34,313 nucleotides of DNA from Flammeovirgaceae bacterium BBD 1991-12 (GTDB lineage Bacteria; Bacteroidota; Bacteroidia; Cytophagales; Cyclobacteriaceae), in NCBI GenBank assembly GCA_001657315.1, contig LYSV01000028.1, forward strand, positions 1 to 34,313. Reading direction: 5' to 3'. The notes beneath the pieces are model-generated. The model was not told where the DNA came from. It worked only from the letters and a program-made list of their open reading frames with translations, and searched no databases. Both the position numbers and the translations under genes were made by a program. Shown in pieces: positions 2,922 to 23,352 of this stretch; within the stretch, counting starts at the first letter, position 1, and every line of letters begins with the position of its first letter.

Positions 2922-3381
2922 TATTTCAGGATAAAGAGAAATACATTCTGCAAAGTAAAATATGTGATATTAAGCAATTGCATCTTTCTACCTTTGCGCA
3001 AACCTTTGGGGGTATTTGTAAGAGGTGATTTTCACTTCGCTCCTGCATGACACAATGATTTTTATTCCTTCGTTACAACACTGATGCCGATAGGGTATGT
3101 AGCGAAAGATCACTCAAGGAATGATACCTTCTCTGTCAGTTGAGCCTACTCATTCACTGTGGTATTCTTGCCATCACCGGCAGGAAGGGTTAGCTTCGAC
3201 AATGATCTTTTTGTTCTCGCTGACTACCTTATAAAGGGTTTTTGTCAGCATGGCCCCAGTACTTTTTGGATTGAATACTGATACGGTTTAGAGTATTGAT
3301 ATCTTTGCTCTGGCTCTTTTGAGTCTGGCTTTCATTTGGATAAAATAGAATTTGAAATAGCACGGATATGCTTATTCTATT
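2922..3381. other. 460-bp gap without a supported gene
   Basis: No long open frame with coding character. The minus strand has a 25-codon frame (3251-3174) reading MLTKTLYKVVSENKK and on to a stop, which looks protein-like but is too short to call. A TAnnTTTG-type box (TACCTTTG) lies on the plus strand at 2989-2996 with no gene after it. The gap may be the remains of a lost gene. Confidence 0.4.
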
Positions 3382-4440
3382 CTACGATCCGTTGGCATTT
3401 TGGATTTTAACCAGAACCCTGTCAACGATCTCCAGGGCTGTTGTTAGCTTTGAAAGATCAGTGTACAATGTTCCTGATTGCCCGGAATGATGCCCGTGTC
3501 CCACCAGCTCCATCAGGTAGTATTTTTTGGAATGGTTCAGATCAATACTGGCTTCGTAGATAAGCGAGGGCTGACCAAGCTGACCGGTACCGTTGTGAAA
3601 TACCTCATCATCAGGAAAATCGAACTCGGAATAATACTCATTGTCATCGAACGCCACATTGATCTCGAGCATCAGCTTAAATGCATGCTGTGTTGGAGCA
3701 GTGGTCGTGTGTAATATGAAACTATCCGCGAAGGTAGCCCCGGAGATTCCATCAGGCAGCGGTTGGTCAGGTGGTGGAGCGTACAACCCATCAGCGTACT
3801 GTACCCCTCTTTTGTGCGACCAATGGGGAAGTGCGTCCACTCTCCGGTAAGAGAAGGACTCGCCGGAGTTTCTTACAGCATCATATTGTTTGAAATTGGA
3901 TTTTGTTCTGCCGCCATAGAATGTCCCCTTCGCGGTGGCATGGGATACAAACAGGCTTTCCTGAAAATTACCGGCGCTGTCCTCCAGCCAAATGGCCATC
4001 TGTGGATGCCAGTAGTGCTCTCCCCGCAATAATTCTATTTCGATCTTCAGCTCTCCTTTGGCCTCCAGTTGTAGCTCAATAAATTCAGTCCGGTCAGCCT
4101 TATTTATGGAACCAGCTTTCTGCCGGGCGCCGAATTCCATGATCTGGGGAAAAGGGGATGCCTTGTAGTAGATAGCCATAGACAACAAAATGATGATGGC
4201 CACCGCCCCCAGGGACAGGCTGGACGGGGCATTGACGCGTTGGTTGTACAAATAGGTTTTCAGAGGCACCAGATTATTCGAAATGTGGATAACAATACCA
4301 ACGATAAACAGAAAGCCGAAAATAGTATGGAAGGTAGCCAGCGTTCGGGTGTAATTGACCAGATAAGACATGACCCCGGTGAAGGCTAAAACAAAAAAGC
4401 ATAAGACAATGCTTATGCTTGTGATCTTACGGAACCGCAT
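3382..4440 (-). CDS. Three-helix membrane protein (DUF4405-like) with extracytoplasmic DUF2271-like domain
   Basis: 352 residues. Three membrane segments are visible: about 9-28, 35-54 and 76-94. His38 and His52 lie in or beside the second segment (FHTIFGFLFIVGIVIH), an arrangement resembling the b-heme ligands of DUF4405 / cytochrome b561-like proteins, though heme binding is inference. Residues about 110-350 are soluble and resemble DUF2271-type periplasmic domains: HPQMAIWLEDSAGNF, then LPHWSHKRGV, and a C-terminal segment with GHGHHSGQSG followed by YTDLSKLTTA. The gene starts 3 bp after the preceding small secreted protein and is third in the sigZ operon, so it is probably made when that sigma factor is active. 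In other bacteria DUF2271 and related domains occur with flavin-transfer or respiratory membrane proteins, so a redox role at the cytoplasmic membrane is plausible but unproven. Confidence 0.65.
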   Translation of the reverse strand: MRFRKITSISIVLCFFVLAFTGVMSYLVNYTRTLATFHTIFGFLFIVGIVIHISNNLVPLKTYLYNQRVNAPSSLSLGAVAIIILLSMAIYYKASPFPQIMEFGARQKAGSINKADRTEFIELQLEAKGELKIEIELLRGEHYWHPQMAIWLEDSAGNFQESLFVSHATAKGTFYGGRTKSNFKQYDAVRNSGESFSYRRVDALPHWSHKRGVQYADGLYAPPPDQPLPDGISGATFADSFILHTTTAPTQHAFKLMLEINVAFDDNEYYSEFDFPDDEVFHNGTGQLGQPSLIYEASIDLNHSKKYYLMELVGHGHHSGQSGTLYTDLSKLTTALEIVDRVLVKIQNANGS

Positions 4441-4443
4441 GTA

Positions 4444-4908
4444 TTAAATCTCTGAAGATAAGTGGGTCATCCGTTGTTCCAGATACCTGACCTGCCGGGC
4501 TTTCCGGTCAGGCAGATTGAATTTTCTGAGGCTGGTGCCAAGTTTACTGTGAAATTCATTTTCTATCAGCTTCACCTCCTCAATGATAATGGTCAGGCTT
4601 TCTTCGTCAGTTTCCCCTATGATGTTCTTTATATCATAGGACCGTGGGGAGAACGTTACCATTGATGACTTTTCCATTTTGGCCTTAAGGTCAATGAGCT
4701 GTAAACGGAGATTGGAGATCACTTTGGCTTCTCCAAACTTTGTTTTAGCGCCACGGCACGCAGATGGAGTACAGCCCGAATTTCCTTTTTGTATCTCTAC
4801 CAGGCCACTGGCCGCTTCGGGTGAGCAGCTGGACTGAGCATAGGAAAACAGGCCTGTCAATACAAAACCGCATACAGCCAAAAGTCTGAATAACTGTAAT
4901 TTTCTCAT
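4444..4908 (-). CDS. Small secreted Cys-containing protein of the sigZ operon, unknown function
   Basis: 154 residues with a clear signal peptide (MRKLQLFRLLAVCGFVL, cleavage near SYAQ). The mature protein opens with three cysteines in about 25 residues (SSCSPEA, then SGCTPSACRGAKTKFGEAK). The rest is predicted helical and charged, with a C-terminal stretch rich in Glu and Arg. It lies between sigZ (81 bp upstream) and the membrane protein (3 bp downstream), which supports one transcript. I do not recognise a named family. The Cys cluster could bind a metal, form disulfides or sense redox state in the periplasm; all three are inference. Confidence 0.7.
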   Translation of the reverse strand: MRKLQLFRLLAVCGFVLTGLFSYAQSSCSPEAASGLVEIQKGNSGCTPSACRGAKTKFGEAKVISNLRLQLIDLKAKMEKSSMVTFSPRSYDIKNIIGETDEESLTIIIEEVKLIENEFHSKLGTSLRKFNLPDRKARQVRYLEQRMTHLSSEI

Positions 4909-4989
4909 AGTGTAATCTTTTTATTCAATTACCTACAAGACGGGAAAATCAAAAAAAGACGAAGAAAAGATGAAAAACTTTTCCGGGAC

Positions 4990-5535
4990 TTAGCAGCAGG
5001 CGGTCCTTTTCTGGTAATGAATGATGTTGCCGAAGCGGTCATGTTCTACCACGCAACACTCCTCTATCAACTCCCTCAACCTTTGACGTGCTCTTTGAAC
5101 TCTGGATTTTACCGTAGAATAGGGCAATCCCAGTTGGTCTGCCAGCTCTTTCTGGCTTAGATCTCCCAGCTCCACCCGGATCAGGACGTCCCGGGATTGT
5201 TTGGGAAGGAAAGGTAGAAAATGATGTATGCATGAAGTAAACTCAATGGTCATGTCAGTGTTATCTTCAGACTCCATGCAAGGGTGTATATATTCAATGT
5301 TGACAAGGCCACTTCCGTTCTTTCTGTAAAAGTCAGTAACGGTATTTCTGGCTATGGAAAATATCCACGCTACGATCCTGTCCCTGTTTTTCAGGGTATC
5401 GACATTGTCATGTACCTTGAGAAACACCTCCTGTACGATATCCTGCGCATGTTCAGCAGTAACGCCCTTCTTTTTGACATAACGCAACAATGAATCGTGA
5501 AGATGGTCCCATAAGTGATTCAACTCAGCCTGCAT
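4990..5535 (-). CDS. sigZ: ECF RNA polymerase sigma factor, SigZ type
   Basis: 181 residues with sigma-70 region 2 at about 25-75 (AQDIVQEVFLKVHDNV, then RIVAWIFSIARNTVTDFYRK) and region 4 at about 110-162 (LPKQSRDVLIRVELGDLSQ, then ELADQLGLPYSTVKSRVQRAR). Region 4 ends in LRELIEECC and is followed by a short tail that names the SigZ subgroup: CCVVEHDRFGNIIHYQ ending in CC. The paired cysteines at both ends of this tail suggest metal or thiol control. No anti-sigma gene is adjacent, unlike many ECF loci. The gene heads an operon with a secreted Cys protein and a membrane protein. A TATTTTTG box lies upstream on the same strand. Family assignment is firm; the signal it answers to is unknown. 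Confidence 0.9.
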   Translation of the reverse strand: MQAELNHLWDHLHDSLLRYVKKKGVTAEHAQDIVQEVFLKVHDNVDTLKNRDRIVAWIFSIARNTVTDFYRKNGSGLVNIEYIHPCMESEDNTDMTIEFTSCIHHFLPFLPKQSRDVLIRVELGDLSQKELADQLGLPYSTVKSRVQRARQRLRELIEECCVVEHDRFGNIIHYQKRTACC

Positions 5536-5578
5536 GACGTTTTTTTTTGAGTGATTTTTATTCCTTTACGAATAGTGG

Positions 5579-5586
5579 CAAAAATA
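5579..5586 (-). promoter_or_regulatory. Bacteroidota -7 box (TATTTTTG) before sigZ
   Basis: A perfect match to TAnnTTTG on the minus strand, 44-51 bp upstream of the sigZ start. That spacing leaves a short leader. A clear -33 TTTG element is not seen, so this is moderate evidence. Confidence 0.5.
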
Positions 5587-5701
5587 GGTTGACCGAAAGC
5601 CTCGTTGAAAGCGATCTTTCAAGTGGTCCTGTTTGTAACAAGGGGATCAAAATCATGGTACTGAGTGGCAGTTTCACCCGCAAAAAATGTAAATTGAAGA
5701 T

Positions 5702-6574
5702 ATGTCAAACATTGGATTGATTATCGAAGAACGCAGCCGGGATATTGGTGATTTCCTGGTGGGAAGACTTATTCCGTTCCGTAAGAAAAGGATGGTCGGG
5801 CCCTTTATTTTTATTGATCATATGGGCCCGTCAGTGATTAAACCCAGTCATTACATGGATATTGGCCAGCATCCCCACATTGGTCTTTCTACACTCACCT
5901 GGTTGTTTGAAGGTGAGATACTGCACCGGGACACACTGGGTACTGTGCAAAAGGTGACCCCGGGGGCAGTGGGATGGATGACGGCCGGAAGAGGTATTGT
6001 CCATACGGAACGCACGCCACCTGAGCAACGGGATGGCGGAGAATATCCAATCCATGGTTTTCAGATATGGGTAGCGCTGCCCAGGGATCTCGAAGAAATG
6101 GAGCCGGAGTTTTTCCATACACCTGCCGGCGATTTACCGGTATGGTCTGAAGACGGGGTAACATTTACCCTGGTGGCAGGAAAGGGCTACGGGCGTGAAT
6201 CACCCGTGCCGGTTTATTCTGATCTTTTTATGGTGCAAGCAAGATCTACCAAAAAAGGGGTTTTTGATACAGACGGCAAGCTGTCCGGTGAGATCGGGAT
6301 ATGTGTGGTGGAGGGCTATATTGAAGCTTGTGGAGAGCGGGTGGAGCAGGGCAATATGCTGGTTTCCAAGGAGCAGGATACATGCCATCTGATGATCGGT
6401 GAAAATACACATTTGCTGCTTTTTGGAGGGCAGCCTTTTGAAGAGGAGCGTTTTATCTACTGGAATTTTGTGGCCTCAGACAGGGAGCGACTGGAAGCGG
6501 CGAAACAACGCTGGGCCGACAGGAAGTTTAAAATGGTACCGGGAGAAACAGGGTATGTGCCACTACCGGGGTAG
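5702..6574 (+). CDS. Pirin-family bicupin
   Basis: 290 residues, normal pirin length. The N-terminal cupin holds all four iron ligands in the places known from human pirin: His57 and His59 in QHPHIGLSTLTWLFEGE, and His101 and Glu103 in GRGIVHTERTP. VGPFIFIDHMGP near residue 32 and IHGFQIWVALP near residue 128 are further family signatures. The C-terminal pirin_C cupin covers about 165-280. Bacterial pirins are cytoplasmic iron proteins; some have quercetinase activity and others modulate metabolic enzymes, and sequence alone does not decide. The start at 5702 gives the expected N-terminus. The next gene, a flavin disulfide oxidoreductase, begins about 90 bp downstream on the same strand; such pairing fits redox metabolism but is not proof of an operon. 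Confidence 0.9.
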   Translation: MSNIGLIIEERSRDIGDFLVGRLIPFRKKRMVGPFIFIDHMGPSVIKPSHYMDIGQHPHIGLSTLTWLFEGEILHRDTLGTVQKVTPGAVGWMTAGRGIVHTERTPPEQRDGGEYPIHGFQIWVALPRDLEEMEPEFFHTPAGDLPVWSEDGVTFTLVAGKGYGRESPVPVYSDLFMVQARSTKKGVFDTDGKLSGEIGICVVEGYIEACGERVEQGNMLVSKEQDTCHLMIGENTHLLLFGGQPFEEERFIYWNFVASDRERLEAAKQRWADRKFKMVPGETGYVPLPG

Positions 6575-6664
6575 CGGTGGGTCATTGCGTGATTAAACTT
6601 ATTTGTTGTTAGGTTATCGGCGAGTCCATTAGGCTTGTTGATCAGATGAAAATCACACGTGCTT

Positions 6665-8053
6665 ATGAAGAAATACAATTCCATCATCATCGGCGCCGGT
6701 CAGGCAGGCCCCTCGTTGTCTGCGCAACTGGCGGCTCAGGGAGAGAAGGTAGCTATCGTTGAACGCAAATTGTTCGGCGGTACCTGTGTGAACAATGGAT
6801 GTACCCCTACGAAAACATTGATCGCCAGTGCCAGAGCCGCGCACATTGCCCGCCGCGGAGCCGACTTTGGGGTGATGATCAACGGACCTGTACTGGTGGA
6901 TATGAAAAAAGTAAAGGAACGGAAAGATCAGGTCGTTCGTCAATCCAGCACCGGTGTGGAAAACTGGCTGAAAAATACACCCAATCTGGACGTTTACGAG
7001 GCTCATGCCCGGTTTGAAGATGCTAAAACGTTACAGGTCGGTGATGAAAGGATCACCGGAGAGAAAATTTTTATCAACGTAGGTGGGAGAGCACGTGTAC
7101 TGGATGATGTAAAAGAGGCGAGATATTTTACAAACAGTACCATCATGGATGTGGATTTTGTGCCGGAGCATCTTGTCATTGTAGGGGGTAGTTACATTGG
7201 CCTGGAGTTTGGACAAATGTACCGGCGATTTGGCAGTGAGGTGACGGTCATAGAAATGGGGGACCGTGTGGTAAGCCGTGAGGATGAAGACGTATCCGAA
7301 GCCATCCGGGAAATACTGGAAAACGAAGGGATCAACCTGCGCCTGAAGGCCGAGTGTATAAAAGCCACACAGCATGGGGATGAGGTGGAGGTTGACGTCA
7401 TTTGCAAGGAAGGCCCTCCGAAAGTACGGGGGTCACACTTGCTGGTAGCTGTCGGACGTGAACCCAATACCCATGATCTTGGGCTGAACAAGGCTGGGGT
7501 AGATATGGACGAACGTGGCTTCATCATCGTTGACGACCACCTGAAGACCAATGTGCCGGGGATATGGGCTTTGGGTGACTGTAATGGTAAAGGAGCCTTT
7601 ACCCATACAGCCTATAATGATTTCGAGATCGTTTATGACCACCTGTACGGTACTGGCAAAAGAAAGGTCAGTGACCGGATACCCTGTTATGCGCTGTATA
7701 CCGATCCGCCTTTGGCAAGGATAGGTATGTCGGAAGGAGAGGCCCGCGGCAGCGGAAAAAATGTACTTATCGGTAGTCGTACCATGAAAAGGGTGTCCCG
7801 CGCCCGTGAAAAAGGAGAAGATCAGGGATTCATGAAAGTGCTGGTGGATGCCGGGACCCAACAGATCCTGGGGGCCACTATTCTGGGTATCGAAGGAGAT
7901 GAGATCATCCACTCCTTACTGGACATAATGTATACCAGGGCACCCTACACTATTATACAAAATGCAGTACATGTTCACCCTACTGTGTCCGAATTAATAC
8001 CTACCATGTTGGGTGAGCTCAGACCCCTGGAAGAATACGCTGAAGATCATTAA
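6665..8053 (+). CDS. FAD-dependent pyridine nucleotide-disulfide oxidoreductase (mercuric reductase-like)
   Basis: About 462 residues. I prefer the ATG at 6665 (MKKYNSIIIGAG) over an in-frame GTG at 6659, because the Rossmann strand starts directly after it. The FAD-binding GAGQAG is at about 10-15. The redox-active pair is Cys41 and Cys46 in GGTCVNNGCTPTKT. The NAD(P)H-binding site is near residue 175 (VIVGGSYIGLEFGQMYRRFG), with a second FAD contact at IWALGDCNGKGAFTHTA. The dimerisation domain ends in VHVHPTVSELIPTML, which carries the catalytic His-Glu pair. It lacks the N-terminal heavy-metal domain and the C-terminal Cys pair of true mercuric reductases, so mercury reduction is unlikely. 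It is also not an obvious Lpd because no dehydrogenase complex genes are near. The physiological disulfide or other acceptor is unknown. Confidence 0.88.
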   Translation: MKKYNSIIIGAGQAGPSLSAQLAAQGEKVAIVERKLFGGTCVNNGCTPTKTLIASARAAHIARRGADFGVMINGPVLVDMKKVKERKDQVVRQSSTGVENWLKNTPNLDVYEAHARFEDAKTLQVGDERITGEKIFINVGGRARVLDDVKEARYFTNSTIMDVDFVPEHLVIVGGSYIGLEFGQMYRRFGSEVTVIEMGDRVVSREDEDVSEAIREILENEGINLRLKAECIKATQHGDEVEVDVICKEGPPKVRGSHLLVAVGREPNTHDLGLNKAGVDMDERGFIIVDDHLKTNVPGIWALGDCNGKGAFTHTAYNDFEIVYDHLYGTGKRKVSDRIPCYALYTDPPLARIGMSEGEARGSGKNVLIGSRTMKRVSRAREKGEDQGFMKVLVDAGTQQILGATILGIEGDEIIHSLLDIMYTRAPYTIIQNAVHVHPTVSELIPTMLGELRPLEEYAEDH

Positions 8054-8068
8054 AAAAATACATCCTGT

Positions 8069-8335
8069 TTATACCTGATCTTCATTTTTTTCAAAGTCAG
8101 TGAAAAACCGGCCGAGAGAGGTATCAAGTACCGTACAGATTTTTTTTAACGTGAGTATGGTAGGCATGATCTTTCCGTTCTCGATCTTGGAGAGGGTATA
8201 ACGATCTATAGCGCCGGTCATGGTTTCAAAATTACGGATGGAGATGCCCTTGAGCTTACGGAGCTTCTTTATCTCAAGGCCAAGCTTCACACTAAATTCT
8301 TTTTTTTCATTTACATCTCCTCTTTCCTTCGACAT
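8069..8335 (-). CDS. Small XRE-family helix-turn-helix regulator
   Basis: 88 residues. A single helix-turn-helix of the Cro/C1 type spans about 15-72: LGLEIKKLRKLKGISIRNFE, then DRYTLSKIENGKIMPTILTLKKICTVLDTSLGRFF. There is no sensor or effector domain, so it acts as a simple DNA-binding protein. It converges with the flavin oxidoreductase, leaving only 15 bp between stop codons, and there is no obvious terminator there. Its own upstream region, also upstream of the response regulator, is about 400 bp long and contains a short dyad. Target genes are unknown. Confidence 0.85.
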   Translation of the reverse strand: MSKERGDVNEKKEFSVKLGLEIKKLRKLKGISIRNFETMTGAIDRYTLSKIENGKIMPTILTLKKICTVLDTSLGRFFTDFEKNEDQV

Positions 8336-8736
8336 GGTTTTTAACGCATTGGGGGTGTTTCATAAATGTAATTTTTTATTAAATAATGAACAAAAAAGCA
8401 TTATCAGATGTTATTGGCAGATTTCTGATCATGTAAGTTTTTTGTGCTTCGTATCATTTCAGGTCGATTTTCATTCATGCACGCTGATTTACTTGTGAGC
8501 TTCGTTATGCATTGGTCCGTAGTTATTTTGATAGTAAGGTTGATGTTTTTATCAACCGTCCTATTTTTAAGTCTAACCATGTTTTAATACTCATTATAAG
8601 ATGTTTATCCCATCATTTGGTTGAAGTATCATTTTAATATGAGTGAGATAGACTGATTTTTTACTTGCAAGATGCGTTGAGGAAAATGTTAATTTTGTCT
8701 TAAACCTTACAGACATTAGATTATGAGGATGATAAA
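8336..8736. other. 401-bp divergent intergenic region with a dyad
   Basis: The region separates the XRE regulator from the response regulator. It is AT-rich, with no supported gene. It contains a perfect 7-bp inverted repeat (GGTTGAT at 8538-8544 and ATCAACC at 8551-8557, 6-nt loop) that could be a regulator binding site or small hairpin. A TAATTTTG box for the response regulator is at 8690-8697. Confidence 0.45.
8690..8697 (+). promoter_or_regulatory. Bacteroidota -7 box (TAATTTTG) before the response regulator
   Basis: Perfect TAnnTTTG match, 39 bp before the ATG at 8737. A TTG at 8665-8667 lies 22 bp upstream of it, a little further than usual for the -33 element. Confidence 0.5.
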
Positions 8737-9378
8737 ATGACAACTATAGACCTTTGTTTACTTGATGATCATGAGCTCTTCCGTGTAGGGCTAAGGGAGC
8801 TTTTTAAAAAGCAAAAAGAATTTCGGATAATTGGAGAATATGCGTCAAATGAGCAGTGCCTGAATGAAATCGGGAGTCAGCTTCCTCATATCCTGCTACT
8901 GGATATTGCCCTGAAAGACGGCTTGTGCTTTGATCTGATCAATGAACTACGGAGCACTCACCCTGACATGAAATTTGTGATCCTGAGTATGCACAAGGGA
9001 GAATACTATGTGATACGGGCCGTGGAGACCGGGATTGACGGGTATTTGTGCAAGGATATAAGCCAGGAAGAATTATTTCATGCGCTTAAAAAAGTGGCAC
9101 GTAGCGACAAGTTTTTTTCTCGTGATATTTCAGAGATCGTGATCAATAACCTTTATCAAATGCCCTCGGTAGGGGTTAGCGGAGTAAAAGCGCTGACTGA
9201 ACGTGAAAGGGAATTGTTGGGTCTTATCGTACAGGGCGATACCAGCAAGGAAATATCGGAGTCGCTGAATATAAGCAGAAAGACGGTGGAAACCCACCGT
9301 GCCAATATTCTCAAAAAGTTCGGTTTTAAAAATACCACCCTCATGGTGCGCGAGCTTACCAGAAGTGGTGTGATCTGA
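8737..9378 (+). CDS. NarL/FixJ-type response regulator (orphan)
   Basis: 213 residues. The receiver domain covers about 3-120. Acidic pocket Asp10-Asp11, phosphoacceptor Asp56 in HILLLDIAL, Ser84 in VILSM and Lys106 in DGYLCKD are all present, so phosphorylation should work. The LuxR-type helix-turn-helix is at about 148-210 (LTERERELLGLIVQGDTSKE, then SLNISRKTVETHRANILKKF). No histidine kinase gene is nearby on either side, so the partner must be encoded elsewhere. The gene stands alone between two long intergenic gaps. Confidence 0.93.
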   Translation: MTTIDLCLLDDHELFRVGLRELFKKQKEFRIIGEYASNEQCLNEIGSQLPHILLLDIALKDGLCFDLINELRSTHPDMKFVILSMHKGEYYVIRAVETGIDGYLCKDISQEELFHALKKVARSDKFFSRDISEIVINNLYQMPSVGVSGVKALTERERELLGLIVQGDTSKEISESLNISRKTVETHRANILKKFGFKNTTLMVRELTRSGVI

Positions 9379-9767
9379 AGCAAGAAAACAGGTGTGAGGG
9401 AGGGGGAAAAACTTAGTTTACATCAAAGCTAGCGGGTGTTCTTTCCTGCCTCCCGATCCAGGGCGTACGTGAGCCATTCGGTTGTTTCATGACATCAAAT
9501 TTTTGTTAAGATTTAGCCATCTCATCAGTAAAGGCATGGAACCAATTTTTCATGTCCCTTTCAAAAAGTAAAATTTTGACTATCAGCCATTTATTTCGAA
9601 AACCGAAGGAAATATTCCTGCAGCAGGCCGTATCTCGGTTTTAAGTTTTTGTAAATTCTTTGTGGAAAAAAGCCCTCATGATGCCTCATGGGTCACTTTT
9701 TGTGGTCTGACAGATCTTTATGCATACAAACTCTCCGTAAAAGAAAAGAGTTCTAACCCCCTGATCT
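9379..9767. other. 389-bp gap without a supported gene
   Basis: Short open frames here lack coding character and family signatures. I see no RNA gene, strong hairpin or clear TAnnTTTG box in it. Confidence 0.4.
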
Positions 9768-11372
9768 ATGACATTGGCAAAAAAGGAACAGGATATTCTG
9801 ATCGCTGTAACCTGTCTGGCGCTATTGATGGGATGGTTTCTCAATCTTGGTAGCTTTCCCCTTAAACTGGAAGAACCCCGCCGGGCACTGGTGGCACTCG
9901 AAATGGTGCTGAACAACGAATACATTGTACCTACTGTGAATGACGTTCCCTATTACAAAAAACCACCTCTTTTTAACTGGGCTTTAATAGGCTCTTTTCG
10001 TCTTTTCGGTGACTACTCCGAATTTTCGATCCGGTTTGTAACCGTATGTTCGTTCATTGTCCTTGTTGTTTTGGTGGGTTGGGTGGGTATGAGGTACGTG
10101 AGCAGGGAGTTTGGATGGTTGCTGGCACTTTTAACCGCTACGTGTGTTGATTTTTTGTTTTATGCCACCATATACGCTGAGATTGATGTGTTCTATGCGC
10201 TGATCACGGTACTGGGTTTCCTTAGCCTCTTCCATTTCTACCAGCAAAAGAATTTTTATGCACTTTTTCCGGGGGTTTACCTGTTTGGGGCTCTGGGTAC
10301 ACTCACGAAAAGCCTGCCATCCCTGGCTTTCCTTGCCTGTTCTCTTACGGCCTGGTTTCTTTATCACAGGGATTGGAAGCGACTTTTTTCCTTGTCACAC
10401 CTGTCAGGGATCCTTCTTTATACAGGTATCATAGGTATGTACCTGATAGTCTATGAAAAAAGGCATAGCCTTGAAGCCTATCTGCAAACCCTGTTTCATG
10501 ATTCCAGTGAAAGAACGCTGGTAGAGCAGGGGTGGTCCGGTCTGTTCAGTCATCTTTTCAGTTATCCCATAGAAGTGCTGAAGGGAATGCTTCCCGGGTC
10601 GCTTTTGCTCATCTTCTTTGTTAGAAAGCGGAAGGAACTTGCCACCACCCTTAGGGAAAACCAATTCATACTCTTTTCCGCGGTTATTGTTATTGCCAAT
10701 TTCTGGCTTTACTGGATCTCTCCTGGTGCCAGGCTGAGGTATGTATTCATGCTGTTTCCATTTATCCTGGCAGTATTCCTTTACAGTTATCAGAAATTCA
10801 TTGCACGTGATATTATCAGATCCCGCGTGTTCAGCATAGTAACCAGTGTCCTGATCGGTTTCGGTGGAATGGCCTGTCTTGTGCTTCCTTTTGTTCCTCA
10901 GGTGAAGGAGCTGCCCTGGATCCTGACTATTTCGTGGATACTGGCCGCAGGGGTAGCTGTTATTTTCCGGTATCAGCGGAAACGCCCGGAAAACTCCCTG
11001 ATCTGTCTTGTACTGGTAGTGGCGCTGTTCCGCGTGCTTTTTGATGTAACCGTCCTCCCGGTACGTAGTAAATACAGTGACTCAAAACAACTCAAGGATA
11101 TTGCCTATGAGGTAGCGGAGCTCACCAAAGGAGACCGGTTATGCGTAACAGAAGCCGACCGTATGCATCTGCTGATCCCTTTTTATCTTACCCGTGAAAG
11201 GCAGGAGATACTGGCCTGTTGCCCTGAGCTGGATAAGGGTTACTACTACCTTGTAGACCAAAAGGCTGTGGACGAGGAACAATTTACTGTTCATTATGGA
11301 TTTGTGATCAAGGAAAGGGAGTATCTCATTGTTACGTTAAAACCTGATACCGGTGAAAATCCGGTTAACTGA
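9768..11372 (+). CDS. ArnT/PMT-like integral membrane glycosyltransferase
   Basis: 534 residues with about a dozen membrane segments; the first (about 10-30) is followed by an extracytoplasmic loop. That loop holds the hallmark of GT39/GT83 enzymes: EEPRRALVALEMVLNNEYIV and then PYYKKPPLFNW, matching the DEPRY...KPPL pattern of ArnT. A second conserved acidic site is in FYATIYAEIDVFYAL. Such enzymes use polyprenyl-phosphate sugars and transfer the sugar to lipid or protein outside the cytoplasmic membrane. A soluble C-terminal domain covers about 430-534. It is first in a run of three glycosyltransferase genes on the same strand (gaps 212 and 45 bp), suggesting a surface-glycan or glycolipid task. 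The acceptor cannot be told. Confidence 0.85.
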   Translation: MTLAKKEQDILIAVTCLALLMGWFLNLGSFPLKLEEPRRALVALEMVLNNEYIVPTVNDVPYYKKPPLFNWALIGSFRLFGDYSEFSIRFVTVCSFIVLVVLVGWVGMRYVSREFGWLLALLTATCVDFLFYATIYAEIDVFYALITVLGFLSLFHFYQQKNFYALFPGVYLFGALGTLTKSLPSLAFLACSLTAWFLYHRDWKRLFSLSHLSGILLYTGIIGMYLIVYEKRHSLEAYLQTLFHDSSERTLVEQGWSGLFSHLFSYPIEVLKGMLPGSLLLIFFVRKRKELATTLRENQFILFSAVIVIANFWLYWISPGARLRYVFMLFPFILAVFLYSYQKFIARDIIRSRVFSIVTSVLIGFGGMACLVLPFVPQVKELPWILTISWILAAGVAVIFRYQRKRPENSLICLVLVVALFRVLFDVTVLPVRSKYSDSKQLKDIAYEVAELTKGDRLCVTEADRMHLLIPFYLTRERQEILACCPELDKGYYYLVDQKAVDEEQFTVHYGFVIKEREYLIVTLKPDTGENPVN

Positions 11373-15041: not shown

Positions 15042-16175
15042 ATGCTAAACTTTATTGCTGGAAGGTATATCAGTCAAGGCTCTTACAAGAGCTTTCAGCC
15101 TGAGAAGATCTGTAGAAAATGGAAAATTGAGAATATGGAATTACTTAACCTGTTAAGCCAGGCTGATAGACAACTGGGAAGACTGGATATGTATTCAGAA
15201 TATATTCCAAATATCGATTTGTTCATCAGCATGCATGTTCTGAAAGAAGCAACCCAATCGAGTAAAATTGAGGGAACCAAAACAAACATTGAAGAAGCAT
15301 TACTTGATAAAGAAGATATTTCAGAAGAACAACGAGATGATTGGGAAGAAGTTCAAAATTATATAGCAGCATTAAACCAGGCTATACATAAGCTTGAAGA
15401 GTTACCATTTTCATCACGACTGATAAGACAAACTCATAAAACACTACTATCAGGCGTTAGAGGTAAACATAAATTACCCGGGGAATTCCGCACAAGTCAA
15501 AATTGGATAGGTGGAGCAAGTATTGCAGATGCAACTTTCATCCCCCCGGTGCATTCCTCAATTAATGAATACATGGGTGACCTGGAAAACTTTGCCCATA
15601 ATCAGGAGTACTATTTCCCTGAACTCTTAAAAATAGCATTGATACATTATCAATTTGAGACTATTCACCCATTCCTCGATGGCAATGGAAGAGTAGGCAG
15701 GTTGATGATAACACTTTATTTGGTTGAAAAAAGAATTTTGAAGAAACCAGTCTTGTATCTGTCTGATTTTTTTGTGAGGAACAGAATGCTATACTATGAC
15801 AACCTGATGAGAGTTCGTGAGAAAAACGATATTACCCAGTGGTTTAAATTCTTTTTGGTCGGAGTGATAGAAACAGCCAAAAACAGTATATCCACTTTTG
15901 ACAAGATATTTAAACTGCAACAGGACGTTGAGACACGTTTGCAACGTTTGGGCAGCCGGTCCGCTAATGCCAGCACTGTTATAAAGCAATTATACCGGCA
16001 TCCAATAATTCAGGCCCGTAACGTGAAAGAGACAACGGGTTTATCAATGCCGTCTGTTTATAAACTGATAGAAGAAATGGAAAACTTAAAAATCCTTCAT
16101 GAAGTAACAGGAGGAAAAAGAGGTAAGGTCTATTTCTTTAGAGAATACATTAATTTGTTTAGCAACGAAGGCTAA
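15042..16175 (+). CDS. Class II Fic-domain protein (AMP transferase type) with C-terminal winged helix
   Basis: 377 residues. The Fic core motif HPFLDGNGRVGR is complete at 209-220, with the catalytic His209 and the phosphate-binding GNGR, so nucleotide transfer (normally AMP from ATP to a Ser, Thr or Tyr hydroxyl) is expected. Residues 73-78 (SSKIEG) match the inhibitory helix motif (S/T)xxxE(G/N). Its position N-terminal to the core makes this a class II Fic, which holds itself inactive without a separate antitoxin. A Fic_N-type helical region precedes it. Residues about 310-370 look like a winged helix (IQARNVKETTGLSMPSVYKL), suggesting DNA binding. The upstream region is AT-rich with palindromes. 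Accessory context, next to gene remnants and the CRISPR locus, suits a defence or stress gene, but the target is unknown. Confidence 0.92.
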   Translation: MLNFIAGRYISQGSYKSFQPEKICRKWKIENMELLNLLSQADRQLGRLDMYSEYIPNIDLFISMHVLKEATQSSKIEGTKTNIEEALLDKEDISEEQRDDWEEVQNYIAALNQAIHKLEELPFSSRLIRQTHKTLLSGVRGKHKLPGEFRTSQNWIGGASIADATFIPPVHSSINEYMGDLENFAHNQEYYFPELLKIALIHYQFETIHPFLDGNGRVGRLMITLYLVEKRILKKPVLYLSDFFVRNRMLYYDNLMRVREKNDITQWFKFFLVGVIETAKNSISTFDKIFKLQQDVETRLQRLGSRSANASTVIKQLYRHPIIQARNVKETTGLSMPSVYKLIEEMENLKILHEVTGGKRGKVYFFREYINLFSNEG

Positions 16176-16689: not shown

Positions 16690-16941
16690 CCGTAGCCCGT
16701 TGCTACTACCTCTGCCATAGCCGCTTTACGCCGGAAGCTGGTAATAAGCGCCCTTGAAATTGTGAGGGATGCACTCCTCACAGTGGAGTTCCCCCTCCGC
16801 ATAGTGAATATTACCCTCGATCTGGTGAGGACTCCCCTCAAAAAAGTGGACGTGTCCCCCGGCTTAGTGGATGATGCCCTCAACCTTGCGGACACTGCCC
16901 TTGACATTTCCAGCCCTGCCCTTGAAAATTTGTGCCTCGCT
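16690..16941 (+). repeat. Degenerate 21-nt periodic tract, about 12 units
   Basis: Aligned in 21-base steps from 16690, the sequence shows fixed anchors and variable gaps. Each unit begins CTC or CTT, has GTG at positions 10-12, and ends in CC, usually GCC or TCC; the six bases between anchors vary. The clearest units are at 16753, 16774, 16795, 16816, 16837, 16858, 16879, 16900 and 16921; those before 16753 are weaker. On the plus strand each unit encodes a heptad L-x-x-V-x-x-(A/P), such as LRIVNIT and LDLVRTP. On the minus strand it encodes heptads such as DTSTFLR and GVLTRSR. The plus-strand frame ends in TGA at 16999-17001, overlapping the ATG of the next gene (ATGA). I do not know this element. 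Confidence 0.75.
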
Positions 16942-16997
16942 ATTGTGAAGTTATGTCCCCGTGGCTTAATTTGGCGACAAAACAAACCTATACCCCT

Positions 16998-17684
16998 ATG
17001 ATTAGTAGAAATTATAATTACTCCGATGAAACATTAATTCAGTATGCCAGCGACCAACTGAGCTATCTTCAGGAAGACCTGTCTGCCTTTGAGGCTTTTG
17101 ACGAGGACCTGGGGGCGGCAAAGCGTGATGCTATGCAGGTGCTGACCGACTGGGCATTGAGCGAGGGGGGCGATGAGGTGAACGTGAGCCGGTTGGGAGG
17201 CTACACTGAAAAGGTGCAGGAGGAAATGGAAAACGCTCGAAAGCTGTACGGTCAGCTGCGCTACTGGGTGGCCAAGGCCTTTCCCGGCAGGAAAGCGGTA
17301 CAGCGGCAGTTCGGCATCGGCAGGTTCAGCAAGATCGCTGACAGTCAGGAGGCCCTGATCAGATTCATGAGCGGGCTGGCCGAATCCGTTAATGACTACC
17401 GTACTCAACTCGAAGCAGCAAAAGCGCCGGTTACCCTGCTGGACAGCGTAGCCGGACAGGCCTCAGCCCTCAGAGCAGCCAATGACGCGCAGGAAAAGAA
17501 GAAAGGCAACCGTACGGTGGATACTGAAGGGAGGATCCGCAAGCTGAACGAACTTCACAGGCACACCCGGGATTACAACGCGGCAGCCGAGCACGTGTTT
17601 TATGACTCTGCTGCCAAAAGGGACCGCTACAGAACACCGGCAAACAACAATACCGTGGAAGCCGTGGATGAGGTGGATATATAG
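16998..17684 (+). CDS. Helical protein of unknown function downstream of the 21-nt tract
   Basis: 228 residues from the ATG at 16998 (MISRNYNYSDETLIQYASDQ). A longer in-frame reading from a GTG at 16932 would run through the repeat tract and is less likely. The protein is charged and almost wholly helical, with no signal peptide or membrane segment. Landmarks are LLDSVAGQASALRAANDAQE near residue 140 and a basic C-terminal third (ELHRHTRDYNAAAEHVFYD). GC content and codon use are higher than in the neighbouring Fic gene, so the two probably have different histories. Translation may be coupled to the preceding heptad frame through ATGA. A strong hairpin (17697-17732) ends the transcript. No family is recognised. 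Confidence 0.75.
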   Translation: MISRNYNYSDETLIQYASDQLSYLQEDLSAFEAFDEDLGAAKRDAMQVLTDWALSEGGDEVNVSRLGGYTEKVQEEMENARKLYGQLRYWVAKAFPGRKAVQRQFGIGRFSKIADSQEALIRFMSGLAESVNDYRTQLEAAKAPVTLLDSVAGQASALRAANDAQEKKKGNRTVDTEGRIRKLNELHRHTRDYNAAAEHVFYDSAAKRDRYRTPANNNTVEAVDEVDI

Positions 17685-17788: not shown

Positions 17789-18350
17789 GCTGTGATTGAC
17801 TTTCAAATTGTAATTTAGCACAGGGATCTTAATTATCTCTACCTTAGTGTAGTAGTTGTGATTAGCTCTCAAATTGTAATTTAGCACAGGGAACCGATAA
17901 AGTCATGGTTTCCTCTATCGTTGTGATTAGCTTTCAAATTGTAATTTAGCACAGGCATTCGGAATGGAAGGCTGGAACATTTGCTGTTGTGATTAGCTTT
18001 CAAATTGTAATTTAGCACAGGCAACACATCAGCACTACCTGCTGCACTGCCGTTGTGATTAGCTTTCAAATTGTAATTTAGCACAGGATGATACCTGTAT
18101 GCCCTGCAACACTAAGGGTTGTGATTAGCTTTCAAATTGTAATTTAGCACAGGCAGTTCTATGAACTGGCAATGTTGGTCAAGTTGTGATTAGCTTTCAA
18201 ATTGTAATTTAGCACAGGGAAAACGCATAATGATGAGCAAACCAATAAGTTGTGATTAGCTTTCAAATTGTAATTTAGCACAGGATGGCCAATCAATGCC
18301 AGTGAAATCATTAAGTTGTGATTAGCTTTCAAATTGTAATTTAGCACAGG
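17789..18350 (+). CRISPR. Type II-C CRISPR array: nine 36-nt repeats, eight 29-30-nt spacers
   Basis: Repeats start at 17789, 17855, 17920, 17986, 18052, 18118, 18183, 18249 and 18315. Each begins GTTGTGATTAGC and ends TTTAGCACAGG. Repeats 3-9 are identical; repeat 2 has one change (position 14) and repeat 1 has three (positions 2, 10, 11). All changes in repeat 1 fall in the half that pairs with tracrRNA. Spacers are 30 nt except two of 29. The plus strand is the likely crRNA strand, because the tracrRNA anti-repeat is complementary to the first 24 bases of the plus-strand repeat. Positions 23-30 of each repeat (TAATTTAG) match the TAnnTTTG box at all but one base, with TTG at positions 2-4 placed 18 bases upstream, so each repeat may carry its own promoter, as known for Neisseria type II-C arrays. 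No spacer target is recognisable by eye. Confidence 0.98.
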
Positions 18351-18407
18351 ATAGTATGATCTAAAACTCAGATAATCATACACTTGTGCCTCCCAAGCGA
18401 TGGGAAC

Positions 18408-18450
18408 AAAACATAAAACCGGGATAAAACAAGTGCCCGGTTTATGTTTT
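18408..18450. terminator. Convergent terminator between the array and the cas operon
   Basis: An inverted repeat of about 15 bp with one bulge (AAAACATAAAACCGGG with CCCGGTTTATGTTTT) around a 12-nt loop. It is 9 bp downstream of the cas2 stop and 58 bp after the last repeat, so it can end both the minus-strand cas transcript and a plus-strand array transcript. Confidence 0.7.
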
Positions 18451-18458
18451 ACCCGGCT

Positions 18459-19696
<1,238 letters not shown>

Positions 19697-19707
19697 GGTA
19701 ATCAGGT

Positions 19708-22700
19708 TTATTCACCTACCTTAATAATATTACCCAGGTGGTTCAGTCGTATTTTTGTGATCCTGCCCAGGTCCTTCTTTCCTGAAATACGATTCCACGT
19801 GATCCCCTTCAGCGGCGCTTCGTCTATGGATTTACCATTGGCATCTTTTCTGTCAACACGTGTTTCCAGGTGATGCCTGAAATCAATGATCGTCTGTCCT
19901 GTTTTCGCCACGCTGATCTTTTGTATCCTAAACAGCTTACAACTGATCTGATCAAGGTTTTTAACCTCCAGAAAATCCAGTTCATCATCATTCCGTGAAT
20001 CTGCCCTGTGTTTCAGATCGAATACGAAAAGGTCATTGATCTGCATGGAAAACCGGAACGCCCCCCATTCGATATGGTCTGACCGGTCAACGACCGGGTA
20101 GGGCTTTGAGGTTTGTTCAATGTTGGCCAGTCCTATACCAACGGCCTCCCAGAAAGAGATTACTTTAATAGTGTAATCGCCCTTGTGGTTTTTATAGACC
20201 AAAGCATGGTGATTTCCACCGGTAGCCACATTATTGGTGGGTACGGGGCGGCCATCTTTTAATAGCTCTTTGCCAAAGTGATCCCGCTTTACACTGGTTT
20301 GAATGACCGTGTTTTCATCAAAAACTGTGATCCGCTTTACTTTTATCCCTTTTTCCTGGTTCAGCCATACAGGATTTTCGTCGAGGTTCCTGAAGGCCTG
20401 TTTAATGCTTCCTGCCTCTGCTATCCTACGTTCAACCAGGTGCCTGATCCTTTGGTCCGTGAGTTTTTTGACCTGCGCATGGGTTATATTTTCATCGAGG
20501 GCTATACGTTTGGTGCCTACCTTTTCATACACCTTGACTTCCTTCAGTACCTTGCCCTTATAGCGTAAGGGATAATTCCTAAGGATTTTGGCTGTAAATG
20601 CCACCCTGGGGTTATAGTCATATTGTTCCAGATGATGAATAACCAGTTCCTTAATGGCCGGGTCAACAATATCCTCATGTTGTCTGAATCTATCATCCAG
20701 TTTTGCAGGTTTGGCAGCTATTCTTTTCACCTTGCCCATAACGGTCTCCTCGTGTAACCTGCCCCGTGGCGTCCAGTATTTTTTGCCGGTGTTCTGATCA
20801 ATGTTTGGAGTGAGTACTTTGGAATTACTTTTCTTAAAAGAGACCAGCAGGTTTTCCAGGTGGTGTTTAACCTGTGCCCTTAAATTGGGTATGGGGCATT
20901 GAAATTCATAAGCCCCCTGATCTATAAATTCTTTCAGGTCAAGATGTTTTCCTGTTTCCTTTTCAAATGAAGCCAGCTCTTCCCCGGTCAGCTCGTTTCG
21001 TTTGTATTGATATATTTTATTGAGGTTATTGAGCCGGAATATGACCTTTTGATCAGTAAGCGCACAAATCAGTGCATCAACGGCATGGTGCCTGTGATCA
21101 TCCCGTTTGCTCCAGTTTTTAATGGCAGTATAAGGAACAGTTTCTCCCCGGCTATTCTTGTAGTTCTTCATCTCCACCTGACCTGCCAGCTTATATTTTT
21201 CAAGATTTATTTCCCTCAGCAGGTGTTCCAGTTCCCATTCTTTTCGTAATAAGTCAGTTATCTGGCCTGTAGTAGTATAGGTAGCTTCACAAACGGTTTT
21301 AAGTAGTTTCACCGCCTCTCTGGCTATGTATTGTGAATCCTTTTTCATTCGTTCCACGAAGTCAGAAGGGATATCCTCACCACGGCAGAGCAGGTTCTCA
21401 AATTTCACCTTGCTAATACTGCCGGCGCCATCTTTGTATAAGGCATTTACCTTTTCTATGTACTGATGAAGTCGTTCTTCTCCAAGGCTGGCCATAAAAT
21501 CATACGCCGTCCGTTGGTCTTTCGTCTTATTGCAGGTACGATGCGCCAGTATGTAATTATTCATTGCATTGCTGAAACTTCTTGACTTAGGCAAAATATG
21601 TTCAATATCTGCCTGACCCTGAAGAAATTCATTAACCGTTATGGGATTGTTACAATAGAGGCATTGCTGCTTGGTTTCCTGCCAAAGCTTGTACCGTTTT
21701 ATATCACGGTTATTGACAATCTTAAAGCCATATTCCTCTTTAAGGCACGTCCTGATACTATCATTAGTCTTTTTATCTTTTGCATTGTGTGCACTTATTC
21801 TTTTCCTGGATTGGGCATTATTTCGCAATTCGCGTGCAAGCTCAACACGTATTTCGTCAAATGGTCCGTATTGATCTATGGCTATGTTGACCATGTTAAC
21901 CATTTGATTCAATATTTGCTCTACTACAGGATTACGAAGACTATTCTGACGGACCGGTAAAAGTCTGTCCTGAATTTCAATTTTAGTTTTATATCCACTG
22001 TGATCATAACCTACTTCATCGCATGCCTCACTGTATTGGAGTCCTTTCTGAAGATATGGTAGTAGTTTTCTTATAGCTCGGGTAGACAGTCTTCCATAGT
22101 CAGACGTGTAGCCTACAGAACGAGCTATGGTTTGGCTTTGATCTTCAGTAAAGCCGAAGCGCCGCATTAAACTGCTGACCACCTGCTGTTCGTCAGGCAA
22201 TGAATAGGTAAGATGCCATAATTCGAAGAGCCCTCCTTTTTCATCGTGCTGATCCAAATTAAAAAAAAGATATTGCTCCGCGTCATCAACACCTGCCCGG
22301 ATCAAGGCAGCCTTCAGCATGGAGTAAGTACGGCTTCCATCCAATTCCGTATGGCTCAGGTATACTCTTTCATTCCTGGAGAACCCCAGTATTTTTTTGA
22401 TCGCCGTGATTGTTAGCTTATAGTGCTTATTAAGCCCGGTACCGTAAAAAAGTGCATTAAAAAGTGCCTCTTTCTGCTGTTCTGAAGGCGTCTGTTCCTC
22501 ACCACTTTCCGTTTTCCAGTTAAGGTCATTGACCTTCTGCCATATCCTGAATATTTCAAAATACGGAGAGCTCTTAGCCACCGCCTTATGATGCTTTTCA
22601 AATGGACATGCTGACACAAGACCTTTCTGGCTTTTCAGGGGATTTTGCCAGTAAATCGTTTTGTTACATATCTCATCATAAAGGGTACCTCCGTTATCAC

Positions 22701-23352
22701 TTTGACCAGGGCCACCGGAGAGTAGTTCAGGATAAAATTGTTGCTGTTTATTCCATATCCTGTCAAACTCTTCTACGTAACTGGCCCTCAAATAGGTCCT
22801 CTCTCTTAAGAGAATGTGCTGCGTTTCTTTTGCTTCCTGTAATTCCTGGTACAGTTGCTGGCCTATCGTCTTCCCGGACCGGTCATTTTCCAATTCAGCA
22901 ATCCGGTCTTTATAAGCCGAGGAGCTTTCCTCTTCCGAAACCGACTTTCGATTGCTCAAAAAACCTCTTCGCTGGTTCAGCAAAATTAAGATCCTCCCCA
23001 ATTGCTTCAGGCTTATTTTCTCCTCGACTGCCTTTGCCCTCAACCCATATAGCTGATATGCGTCTAATAAAAATAATGCTTTGTCCGGAAACATATCGTG
23101 TAGCCTCAGTAAAGCATAAAGCTTGTTTCTCCTGGTTTTGAAACGTTGATTATTTCTCCTAATACCTCTTTTCTCTGTTCTGGCCAAATTCTTGCTGGCT
23201 GTATTGCCGGAGTAGAACTTCCCATGAAAATTGGGGTCTTCCGGCACTACACGGCATGCCATTTTTAAAACTTTTTTTCCTTTGGCGCTATCCTCTACTA
23301 TGGCCAGGCCTACAGAGGATACACCAATATCTAAGCCAAGGATCTTTTTCAT
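19708..23352 (-). CDS. cas9: RNA-guided endonuclease Cas9, subtype II-C
   Basis: 1214 residues. All catalytic parts are present: RuvC-I with Asp8 (KKILGLDIGVSSVGLAIVE), an Arg-rich bridge helix (RRNNQRFKTRRNKLYALL, about 65-82), RuvC-II with Glu504 (PFDEIRVELARELRNN), HNH with His585 (ADIEHILPKSRSFSNAMNNY) and Asn608 (HRTCNKTK), and RuvC-III with His756 and Asp759 (DDHRHHAVDALICALTD). CLYC (564-567) precedes the HNH catalytic strand and could bind zinc together with Cys607, though only three cysteines are seen. Residues about 830-1214 are the WED/PAM-interacting region; the PAM cannot be predicted by eye. The protein cleaves both strands of DNA matching a crRNA, using the tracrRNA encoded just upstream. 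ATG 23352 is chosen because RuvC-I follows directly. Confidence 0.98.
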   Translation of the reverse strand: MKKILGLDIGVSSVGLAIVEDSAKGKKVLKMACRVVPEDPNFHGKFYSGNTASKNLARTEKRGIRRNNQRFKTRRNKLYALLRLHDMFPDKALFLLDAYQLYGLRAKAVEEKISLKQLGRILILLNQRRGFLSNRKSVSEEESSSAYKDRIAELENDRSGKTIGQQLYQELQEAKETQHILLRERTYLRASYVEEFDRIWNKQQQFYPELLSGGPGQSDNGGTLYDEICNKTIYWQNPLKSQKGLVSACPFEKHHKAVAKSSPYFEIFRIWQKVNDLNWKTESGEEQTPSEQQKEALFNALFYGTGLNKHYKLTITAIKKILGFSRNERVYLSHTELDGSRTYSMLKAALIRAGVDDAEQYLFFNLDQHDEKGGLFELWHLTYSLPDEQQVVSSLMRRFGFTEDQSQTIARSVGYTSDYGRLSTRAIRKLLPYLQKGLQYSEACDEVGYDHSGYKTKIEIQDRLLPVRQNSLRNPVVEQILNQMVNMVNIAIDQYGPFDEIRVELARELRNNAQSRKRISAHNAKDKKTNDSIRTCLKEEYGFKIVNNRDIKRYKLWQETKQQCLYCNNPITVNEFLQGQADIEHILPKSRSFSNAMNNYILAHRTCNKTKDQRTAYDFMASLGEERLHQYIEKVNALYKDGAGSISKVKFENLLCRGEDIPSDFVERMKKDSQYIAREAVKLLKTVCEATYTTTGQITDLLRKEWELEHLLREINLEKYKLAGQVEMKNYKNSRGETVPYTAIKNWSKRDDHRHHAVDALICALTDQKVIFRLNNLNKIYQYKRNELTGEELASFEKETGKHLDLKEFIDQGAYEFQCPIPNLRAQVKHHLENLLVSFKKSNSKVLTPNIDQNTGKKYWTPRGRLHEETVMGKVKRIAAKPAKLDDRFRQHEDIVDPAIKELVIHHLEQYDYNPRVAFTAKILRNYPLRYKGKVLKEVKVYEKVGTKRIALDENITHAQVKKLTDQRIRHLVERRIAEAGSIKQAFRNLDENPVWLNQEKGIKVKRITVFDENTVIQTSVKRDHFGKELLKDGRPVPTNNVATGGNHHALVYKNHKGDYTIKVISFWEAVGIGLANIEQTSKPYPVVDRSDHIEWGAFRFSMQINDLFVFDLKHRADSRNDDELDFLEVKNLDQISCKLFRIQKISVAKTGQTIIDFRHHLETRVDRKDANGKSIDEAPLKGITWNRISGKKDLGRITKIRLNHLGNIIKVGE

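Follow-up and report, generated by a model that had tools for sequence, protein, structure and literature searches.

Tandem short repeats that lie beside the gene for their own binding protein are known from plasmid centromere arrays. In parC/ParR (type II) and parS/omega (type Ib), the repeats precede the genes of the binding proteins or overlap their promoters, and the small protein binds the repeats cooperatively, wraps the DNA and represses (PMC5016525). Here, we analysed a tract of 21-bp periodicity in a stretch of 34,313 nucleotides (contig LYSV01000028.1, hereafter the window) of Flammeovirgaceae bacterium BBD 1991-12, together with related loci in other genomes. A search of open-licence papers found no description of such arrays.

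The periodic tract and its surroundings

A previous sequence-only reading of the window described about 12 units with a period of 21 nt, and our results show that this periodicity is real, with nine clear units in a strict parse and 12 in a laxer one (Table 1). Lag-21 identity is 0.47 across 16690-16941, with a shuffle mean of 0.25 (z 7.5). That reading would have been abandoned if shuffled sequence had given the same 21-nt autocorrelation, but none of 2000 dinucleotide-preserving shuffles matches the lag-21 identity of the tract, either at that lag or anywhere between lags 3 and 59. The tract is the strongest 200-bp lag-21 stretch in the whole 34-kb window, and it was not reported by Tandem Repeats Finder at its lowest threshold (score 30). 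Both CTC/CTT and GTG agree with their description as anchors, as does the CC between units, and the idea that the 6-mers between them vary freely is only roughly right: the frequency of the commonest base per column runs from 0.32 to 0.92. The ATGA overlap with the gene start does exist, with TGA at 16999-17001 over ATG at 16998-17000, but it is atypical among related loci; in 50 parsed arrays, the median distance from the array end to the aligned gene start is 131.5 bp.

Table 1. Positions of the tract and of neighbouring features in the window.
Feature	Position	Strand	Remarks
Fic-family gene	15042-16175		Pfam match
Stop-to-stop open frame across the array	16696-17001	+	Terminates in ATGA; judged accidental
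Array including weaker flanking units on both sides	16708-16959	+	12 units; laxer parse
Array core	16752-16940	+	Nine units; consensus CCTCgacat.GTG.a...tgC; 8 of 8 spacings exactly 21; profile parse
Gap between array and gene	16941-16997	+	AT-rich in related arrays; promoter probably here
Family A gene	16998-17684	+	228-aa acidic protein, predicted all-helical; proposed array binder
CRISPR array	17791-18350		Repeats of about 36 bp
cas2	18459-18797	-	
cas1	18794-19696	-	
Gene for Cas9-like protein	19708-23352	-	1214 aa; RuvC_III, HNH, Cas9_a

A CRISPR array was said to lie less than 1 kb from the tract, and one does start about 850 bp away, followed by cas genes on the opposite strand. The region 17791-23352 is a type II CRISPR-Cas system that, as far as seen, is unrelated to the tract, and a link between the two finds no support in other loci: none of 15 other contexts has a cas gene in common with the window by BLAST. 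The tract is not itself a CRISPR array: its 21-bp units show graded column conservation instead of near-identical repeats with unrelated spacers, and the true CRISPR array is separate. Upstream of the tract, the window has a Fic-family gene, and another is found upstream of the homologous gene in L128 (6982-8400, genome G047). The two Fic genes are 32% identical over 164 residues, and this shared neighbour may be due to chance.

Association of the arrays with genes for helical proteins

The gene downstream of the tract codes for a protein of what we call family A. An AlphaFold2 model built from a 6-sequence alignment contains helices only (mean pLDDT 85, pTM 0.50), in agreement with the helical protein of 228 residues predicted in the sequence-only reading. 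Pfam searches assigned the protein to no family at its cut-off and found no Rep domain, and structure searches gave nothing decisive and found no known DNA-binding fold. The protein reaches 37.3 bits against NCBIfam NF052641 (PQLLE), below the curated cut-off of 80 bits, and family A and PQLLE are, judging from comparison of their profiles (hhalign E 1.9e-5), remotely related. Family A homologues occur in 22 of 395 genomes of a class sample (from its named relatives, presumably Bacteroidia) and in 9 of 196 genomes of an overlapping family sample; many of these matches came without a locus, and the association counts below cover the located ones. Family B is a helical-looking protein of 211 aa that was first met behind an array in Marinoscillum furvescens (G021) and is present in 13 of the 196 family genomes, and family C comprises the PQLLE members of the window's own genome (four members or pseudogenes looked at). 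Comparison of families A and B did not demonstrate homology between them. The array-linked proteins have about 210-230 residues and are mostly acidic, with median pI of 4.9 (A), 5.0 (B) and 5.4 (C) and a few basic members up to 9.6. Some have a C-terminal extension, which in family A members of f24 and f30 (e.g. L014, L015, L016 and L017) measures roughly 90 residues and by eye resembles a carboxypeptidase regulatory-like domain.

An array was called when lag-21 identity reached 0.52 or more over 105 bp somewhere within 650 bp upstream of the gene. For family A, 44 non-redundant loci were taken after removal of duplicates (L002, L009, L010, L038, L039, L046, L049, L051) and contig-edge fragments (L007, L050), and 40 were assessable, the exceptions being L004, L013 and L035, which are close to a contig end, and L041, which contains a run of N. 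An upstream array is present in 34 of the 40 assessable family A loci, 15 of 22 family B loci and 2 of 4 family C loci, with none at this threshold in six and seven loci of families A and B, respectively. In family C, a third member stays just under the threshold (0.51) and the pseudogene does not pass. Two weak family A matches with no tract at threshold (L045, L048) were left out, and with both the count becomes 34 of 42; a partial family B match (L203) was left out as well. Homologues of the window gene lacking any tract had been proposed as the observation that would speak against a gene-coupled array, and most homologues carry one.

The association is specific in position and in period. 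Downstream arrays were called in 1 of 42 family A loci, 0 of 21 family B and 0 of 4 family C, and the sole case (L031) is the upstream array of a tandem second gene copy. When 28 other lags between 10 and 40 were pooled, only 2 of 40 (A), 2 of 22 (B) and 0 of 4 (C) loci were flagged. Among control sequences, 6 of 1710 windows of 650 bp passed (1.14 Mb, four genomes): two are themselves gene-linked (L078, L106), and the other four come from L074 (two), L096 and L100 (one each). A genome of the same genus without family A or B match (G006) has no lag-21 tract in 400 kb and has five tracts at other lags. A scan of 827 kb recovered eight lag-21 tracts, of which four are gene-linked (the window, L078, L087 and L106) and the others correspond to coding sequence (L074:14311), a short stretch by an HTH-like ORF (L074:16506), a four-copy minisatellite (L096) and an orphan (L100). 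A 42-bp array in L104 comes in addition to these eight.

In G021, arrays are also located away from family A and B genes. A leader of about 140-180 bp occurs at 12 places in this genome and its last 24 bases at 16 (leader loci L118, L133, L140, L142, L156, L160, L161, L162, L163, L164 and L165), and in most of 16 loci compared in detail an array begins directly after GGGTCC, with units differing by place. Exceptions are L153, with no array seen, L164, with remnants, L160, where the leader end is doubled, and L157, with the first part of the leader only. The exact 24-base pattern is absent from six other genomes. Between two leader arrays, L161 carries two IS200-like ORFs, one confirmed as Y1_Tnp and the other a near copy by eye. 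We read this dispersal as a local spread by a mobile element, outside the general system. Three arrays of this genome terminate on the stop codon of a convergent gene or no more than about 20 bases from it (paired positions: L116 2334/2335, L158 5895/5893, L163 5879/about 5898). In L116, the stretch 2335-10513 holds a family A gene, hsdM (Pfam) and, by eye, hsdS- and hsdR-like ORFs in one direction; a short array precedes the family A gene and a 19-unit array (0.94 identity) follows the hsdR-like ORF, both with the same unit family and the same orientation.

Pitch, unit sequence and constraint on the anchors

Fifty arrays with a visible tract (32 A, 15 B and 3 C) were parsed into units, leaving aside L014, where a 7-nt repeat dominates, L034, a near copy of L033, and L026, L041 and L111. 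These arrays have 5 to 19 units, with a median of 11. Of 508 spacings, 498 are exactly 21, the rest being six of 20, two of 19, one of 18 and one of 22, in a parse that presumes a 21-bp model and so leans towards 21, as the lag test does not. The unit sequence varies by locus, often even among paralogues of one genome, while the period is constant; array GC ranged from 0.17 to 0.66 in the first set, one N-filled tract being left out. Some loci depart from the common form. In L115 (3527-4490, G243), a 42-bp (2 x 21) array with palindromes in its units lies downstream of a gene whose 240-aa product matches nothing in Pfam or NCBIfam, and upstream of the gene in L033 and L034 there are two sub-arrays that have their unit core in common and face opposite ways (GTTGTCCGC and GCGGACAAC). 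In L154 (G021 C13), at about 1330-1500, CCTGCG is followed by 14-15 apparently unrelated bases at a spacing of 20-21 bp, as judged by eye, so that in these units the anchor is kept and all else is lost.

Conservation of the 21 columns was analysed in the 45 arrays with at least eight units. The second harmonic, with a period of 10.5 bp, holds 0.252 of column-conservation power, where permuted columns give 0.10. Among ten harmonics it ranks first in 22 of 45 arrays; in the other 23 a different harmonic leads, which is the first harmonic in 11 of them. No block permutation out of 2000, with local clustering preserved, reaches the mean 10.5-bp power, and this remains so when the window is removed and when families A and B are analysed separately (0 of 2000 each). 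In the window array alone, this harmonic accounts for 0.56 of the power, a value reached in 7 of 20000 permutations. Such a recurrence suggests that the unit tends to have two conserved patches, one per helical turn, and half-unit repetition (z -0.09) indicates that the two patches are unlike each other. Twenty-one base pairs is the shortest length in whole base pairs that makes up a whole number of 10.5-bp turns. The sequence-only reading had proposed a protein-bound array with every anchor on the same DNA face, and the 10.5-bp recurrence of conserved columns over 45 arrays argues for it.

Constraint on the anchors could be followed in L109 and L110, loci of two Cyclobacteriaceae metagenome-assembled genomes whose arrays align unit by unit. 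Eight anchor columns are 0.91 identical between them, and the rest 0.51, in the ten units nearest to the gene, with corresponding values of 0.86 and 0.49 for 12 units and 0.75 and 0.45 for 15; identity at the three codon positions of the gene is 0.89, 0.95 and 0.56 (third). The anchor set was chosen after seeing the columns, so the fair test is to permute and ask how often the observed column heterogeneity is reached; this was the case in 0 (10 units), 0 (12 units) and 1 (15 units) of 20000 permutations. The claim that selection acts on the anchors is thus supported in this pair. In these orthologue columns alone, the 10.5-bp harmonic lacks significance, being reached by 7120 of 20000 permutations for 10 units and by 2008 for 15; a repeat gave 7152 and 1957.

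Between array and gene, the gap has a median GC of 0.31, compared with 0.46 in the arrays (50 related arrays). The Bacteroidota-like motif TANNTTTG occurs in the gap of 5 of 50 loci, with one match in all arrays and three in the 150-bp stretches upstream of arrays. An AT-rich gap with this motif in some loci suggests that the promoter of the gene is probably in the gap and the array upstream of it.

The array as a probable set of binding sites, its candidate reader and known systems

Association with the genes, the fixed period, the 10.5-bp columns and, in one orthologous pair, anchor constraint are features of the DNA as observed, and both the pattern and its spread across genomes have good support. 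On these grounds the tract is rather probably a non-coding array of DNA-binding sites, all on one DNA face. Each 21-bp unit would correspond to two helical turns with two different short anchors, one per turn, so that all anchors would face one side of the DNA, and five to nineteen such sites would be stacked upstream of the probable promoter of the helical-protein gene. A family-specific protein, most simply the downstream product or its partner, may bind the array cooperatively and form a nucleoprotein filament controlling its own gene, and this filament would perhaps organise or mark that stretch of the chromosome.

Comparison of unit motifs bears on which protein reads the array. Within family B, arrays of four genomes from four genera share the motif CTGCAnAnACCnCTcG, oriented alike relative to the gene (L185, L188, L198, L189 and L193, with a variant in L199). 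Fifteen of 87 cross-genome family B pairs score above the highest value that 420 A x B control pairs reach in the same orientation, and in opposite orientation none of the 87 does. Same-genome pairs across families (nine, A x B and A x C) have similarities of 0.16-0.33, with a background mean of 0.277 over 1057 different-genome pairs. As far as these comparisons go, motif and orientation follow the protein family and not the genome, clearly so in family B, which suggests that the reader is family-specific and directs attention to the downstream product or one of its partners. In a comparison of 28 family A and 14 family B arrays of seven or more units, L008 and L044 being left out, the relation of array similarity to protein identity is weak in A (Mantel, 146 of 2000) and moderate in B (39 of 2000). 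The window array is not alike to those of its closest relatives (0.37 with L109, 0.27 with L110), and paralogues of G021 that are 65-77% identical (L005, L006 and the fragment L008) have unrelated arrays (0.26-0.39), so tight co-evolution fits poorly. We tentatively regard the downstream protein as the array binder; this is a guess, since the proteins are mostly acidic and have no known DNA-binding fold. The same two properties would suit an unlinked host regulator or nucleoid protein that binds the array, with the helical proteins merely its regulated targets, as would the existence of arrays without such a gene. However, in B the motif stays with the family from genome to genome, and within one genome different families have different motifs, so that several family-specific regulators would be required; we consider an unlinked regulator unlikely.

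The other explanations concern what a 21-nt period could be if it is not a row of binding sites. Slipped-strand duplication of 21-bp units followed by neutral decay would produce an ordinary minisatellite without function, and the fast turnover of unit sequence, as well as young and near-uniform arrays such as those of L113 (42-bp lag identity 0.97) and G021 C20 (0.94), is in line with this. It is nevertheless very unlikely in our judgement, because arrays of unlike sequence share an identical exact period and are linked to genes, because columns decay unevenly, both in the L109/L110 heterogeneity and in the 10.5-bp harmonic over 45 arrays, and because family B keeps its motif and orientation across genera. 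Transcription of the array as a repeat RNA, for example a type III antitoxin-like RNA holding many copies of the downstream protein, is suggested by the position of a repeat array right before one gene, as in type III toxin-antitoxin loci (PMC8860590), and by the conserved leader with inverted repeats before many G021 arrays. Folding of 47 arrays, limited to nested folds, gave no signal relative to column-permuted copies on either strand, with mean z of -0.14 (sense) and 0.02 (antisense) and z below -2 in two arrays (sense) and one (antisense), and nine loci had no Rfam match at its family's curated cut-off. In addition, 10.5-bp modulation is a signature of the double helix and an AT-rich gap sits between array and gene, which makes an RNA function quite unlikely.

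The heptad repeats proposed in the sequence-only reading would make the array a peptide-coding sequence. Twenty-one nucleotides are seven codons, one forward frame is open across the window array, and at least one stop-free forward frame exists in 27 of 50 arrays. Against this, 19 of the 50 have stops in all six frames, 9 of the 10 spacings other than 21 (18-22) break the frame, and period-3 power of column conservation falls below its null (0.082 vs 0.10). In L109/L110, the period-3 harmonic was the largest for 10 units, at a non-significant level (1717 of 20000; 3607 for 15 units), and coding was therefore tested directly over 12 units. The open plus-strand frame has a pN/pS of 1.57 (1.00-2.76) and the open minus-strand frame 0.80 (0.59-1.12), compared with 0.10 for the gene itself. 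A low value in favour of a peptide, 0.47 (0.32-0.69), belongs to a plus frame with 3 and 2 stops, but a minus frame with 6 and 3 stops is also at 0.44, so low pN/pS is no sign of coding in these arrays. None of the frames combines an open reading with a clear sign of purifying selection, and a heptad peptide is hardly probable.

An array of binding sites on one DNA face would explain the 21-bp period as the smallest whole number of helical turns in whole base pairs, and uncharacterised families of helical proteins are thereby tied to a precise DNA partner. If the downstream proteins bind the arrays, they would offer a new DNA-recognising fold and natural protein-array pairs for the study of joint change; if they do not, other family-specific regulators exist and should be findable. 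It is possible, though in our view doubtful, that the whole forms a self-addressing system, in which a helical superfamily with an undescribed mode of DNA binding would have a private array per family or paralogue, the pitch being fixed at two turns while the code drifts, so that several orthogonal pairs would coexist in a single cell, each assembling its own one-sided filament along the chromosome.

Among known systems, the remotely homologous PQLLE proteins (NF052641) share more than ancestry with the window protein, as some PQLLE genes in its genome also have upstream 21-bp arrays, but the window protein is far below the 80-bit cut-off of their model. ToxIN and other type III toxin-antitoxin loci likewise have a repeat array immediately before one gene (PMC8860590), but the units here are diverged 21-bp sequences with DNA-helix periodicity and no nested RNA-fold signal. 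No plasmid copy of family A was found among 72,556 plasmid records, and in G243, G496 and G592 the contigs that carry family A loci measure 1.6-3.1 Mb (up to 3.1 Mb in G243). Iteron arrays of plasmid Rep proteins have sites near two helical turns apart. The arrays described here resemble them in this spacing and in their place beside a putative cognate gene, but are found on chromosome-sized contigs and beside a protein with no Rep domain at the Pfam cut-off. The closest system in working would, by analogy, be the plasmid centromere arrays, since here too the array lies upstream of the gene for a putative binding protein. Unlike parC/ParR, no motor gene is a common neighbour in 16 contexts within 5.5 kb, some of them cut by contig ends and with partial annotation; what these 16 do share is limited to a Fic gene (two contexts), an ORF of 80% identity (L106 and L128) and short matches between the large ORFs of three contexts. 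The protein is predicted all-helical with no strand in the 6-sequence AlphaFold2 model, which may set it apart from ParR, a ribbon-helix-helix protein with a beta strand, and the unit sequence differs between loci, unlike plasmid parC. We would class the module as a phased operator- or centromere-like array that belongs to no named family.
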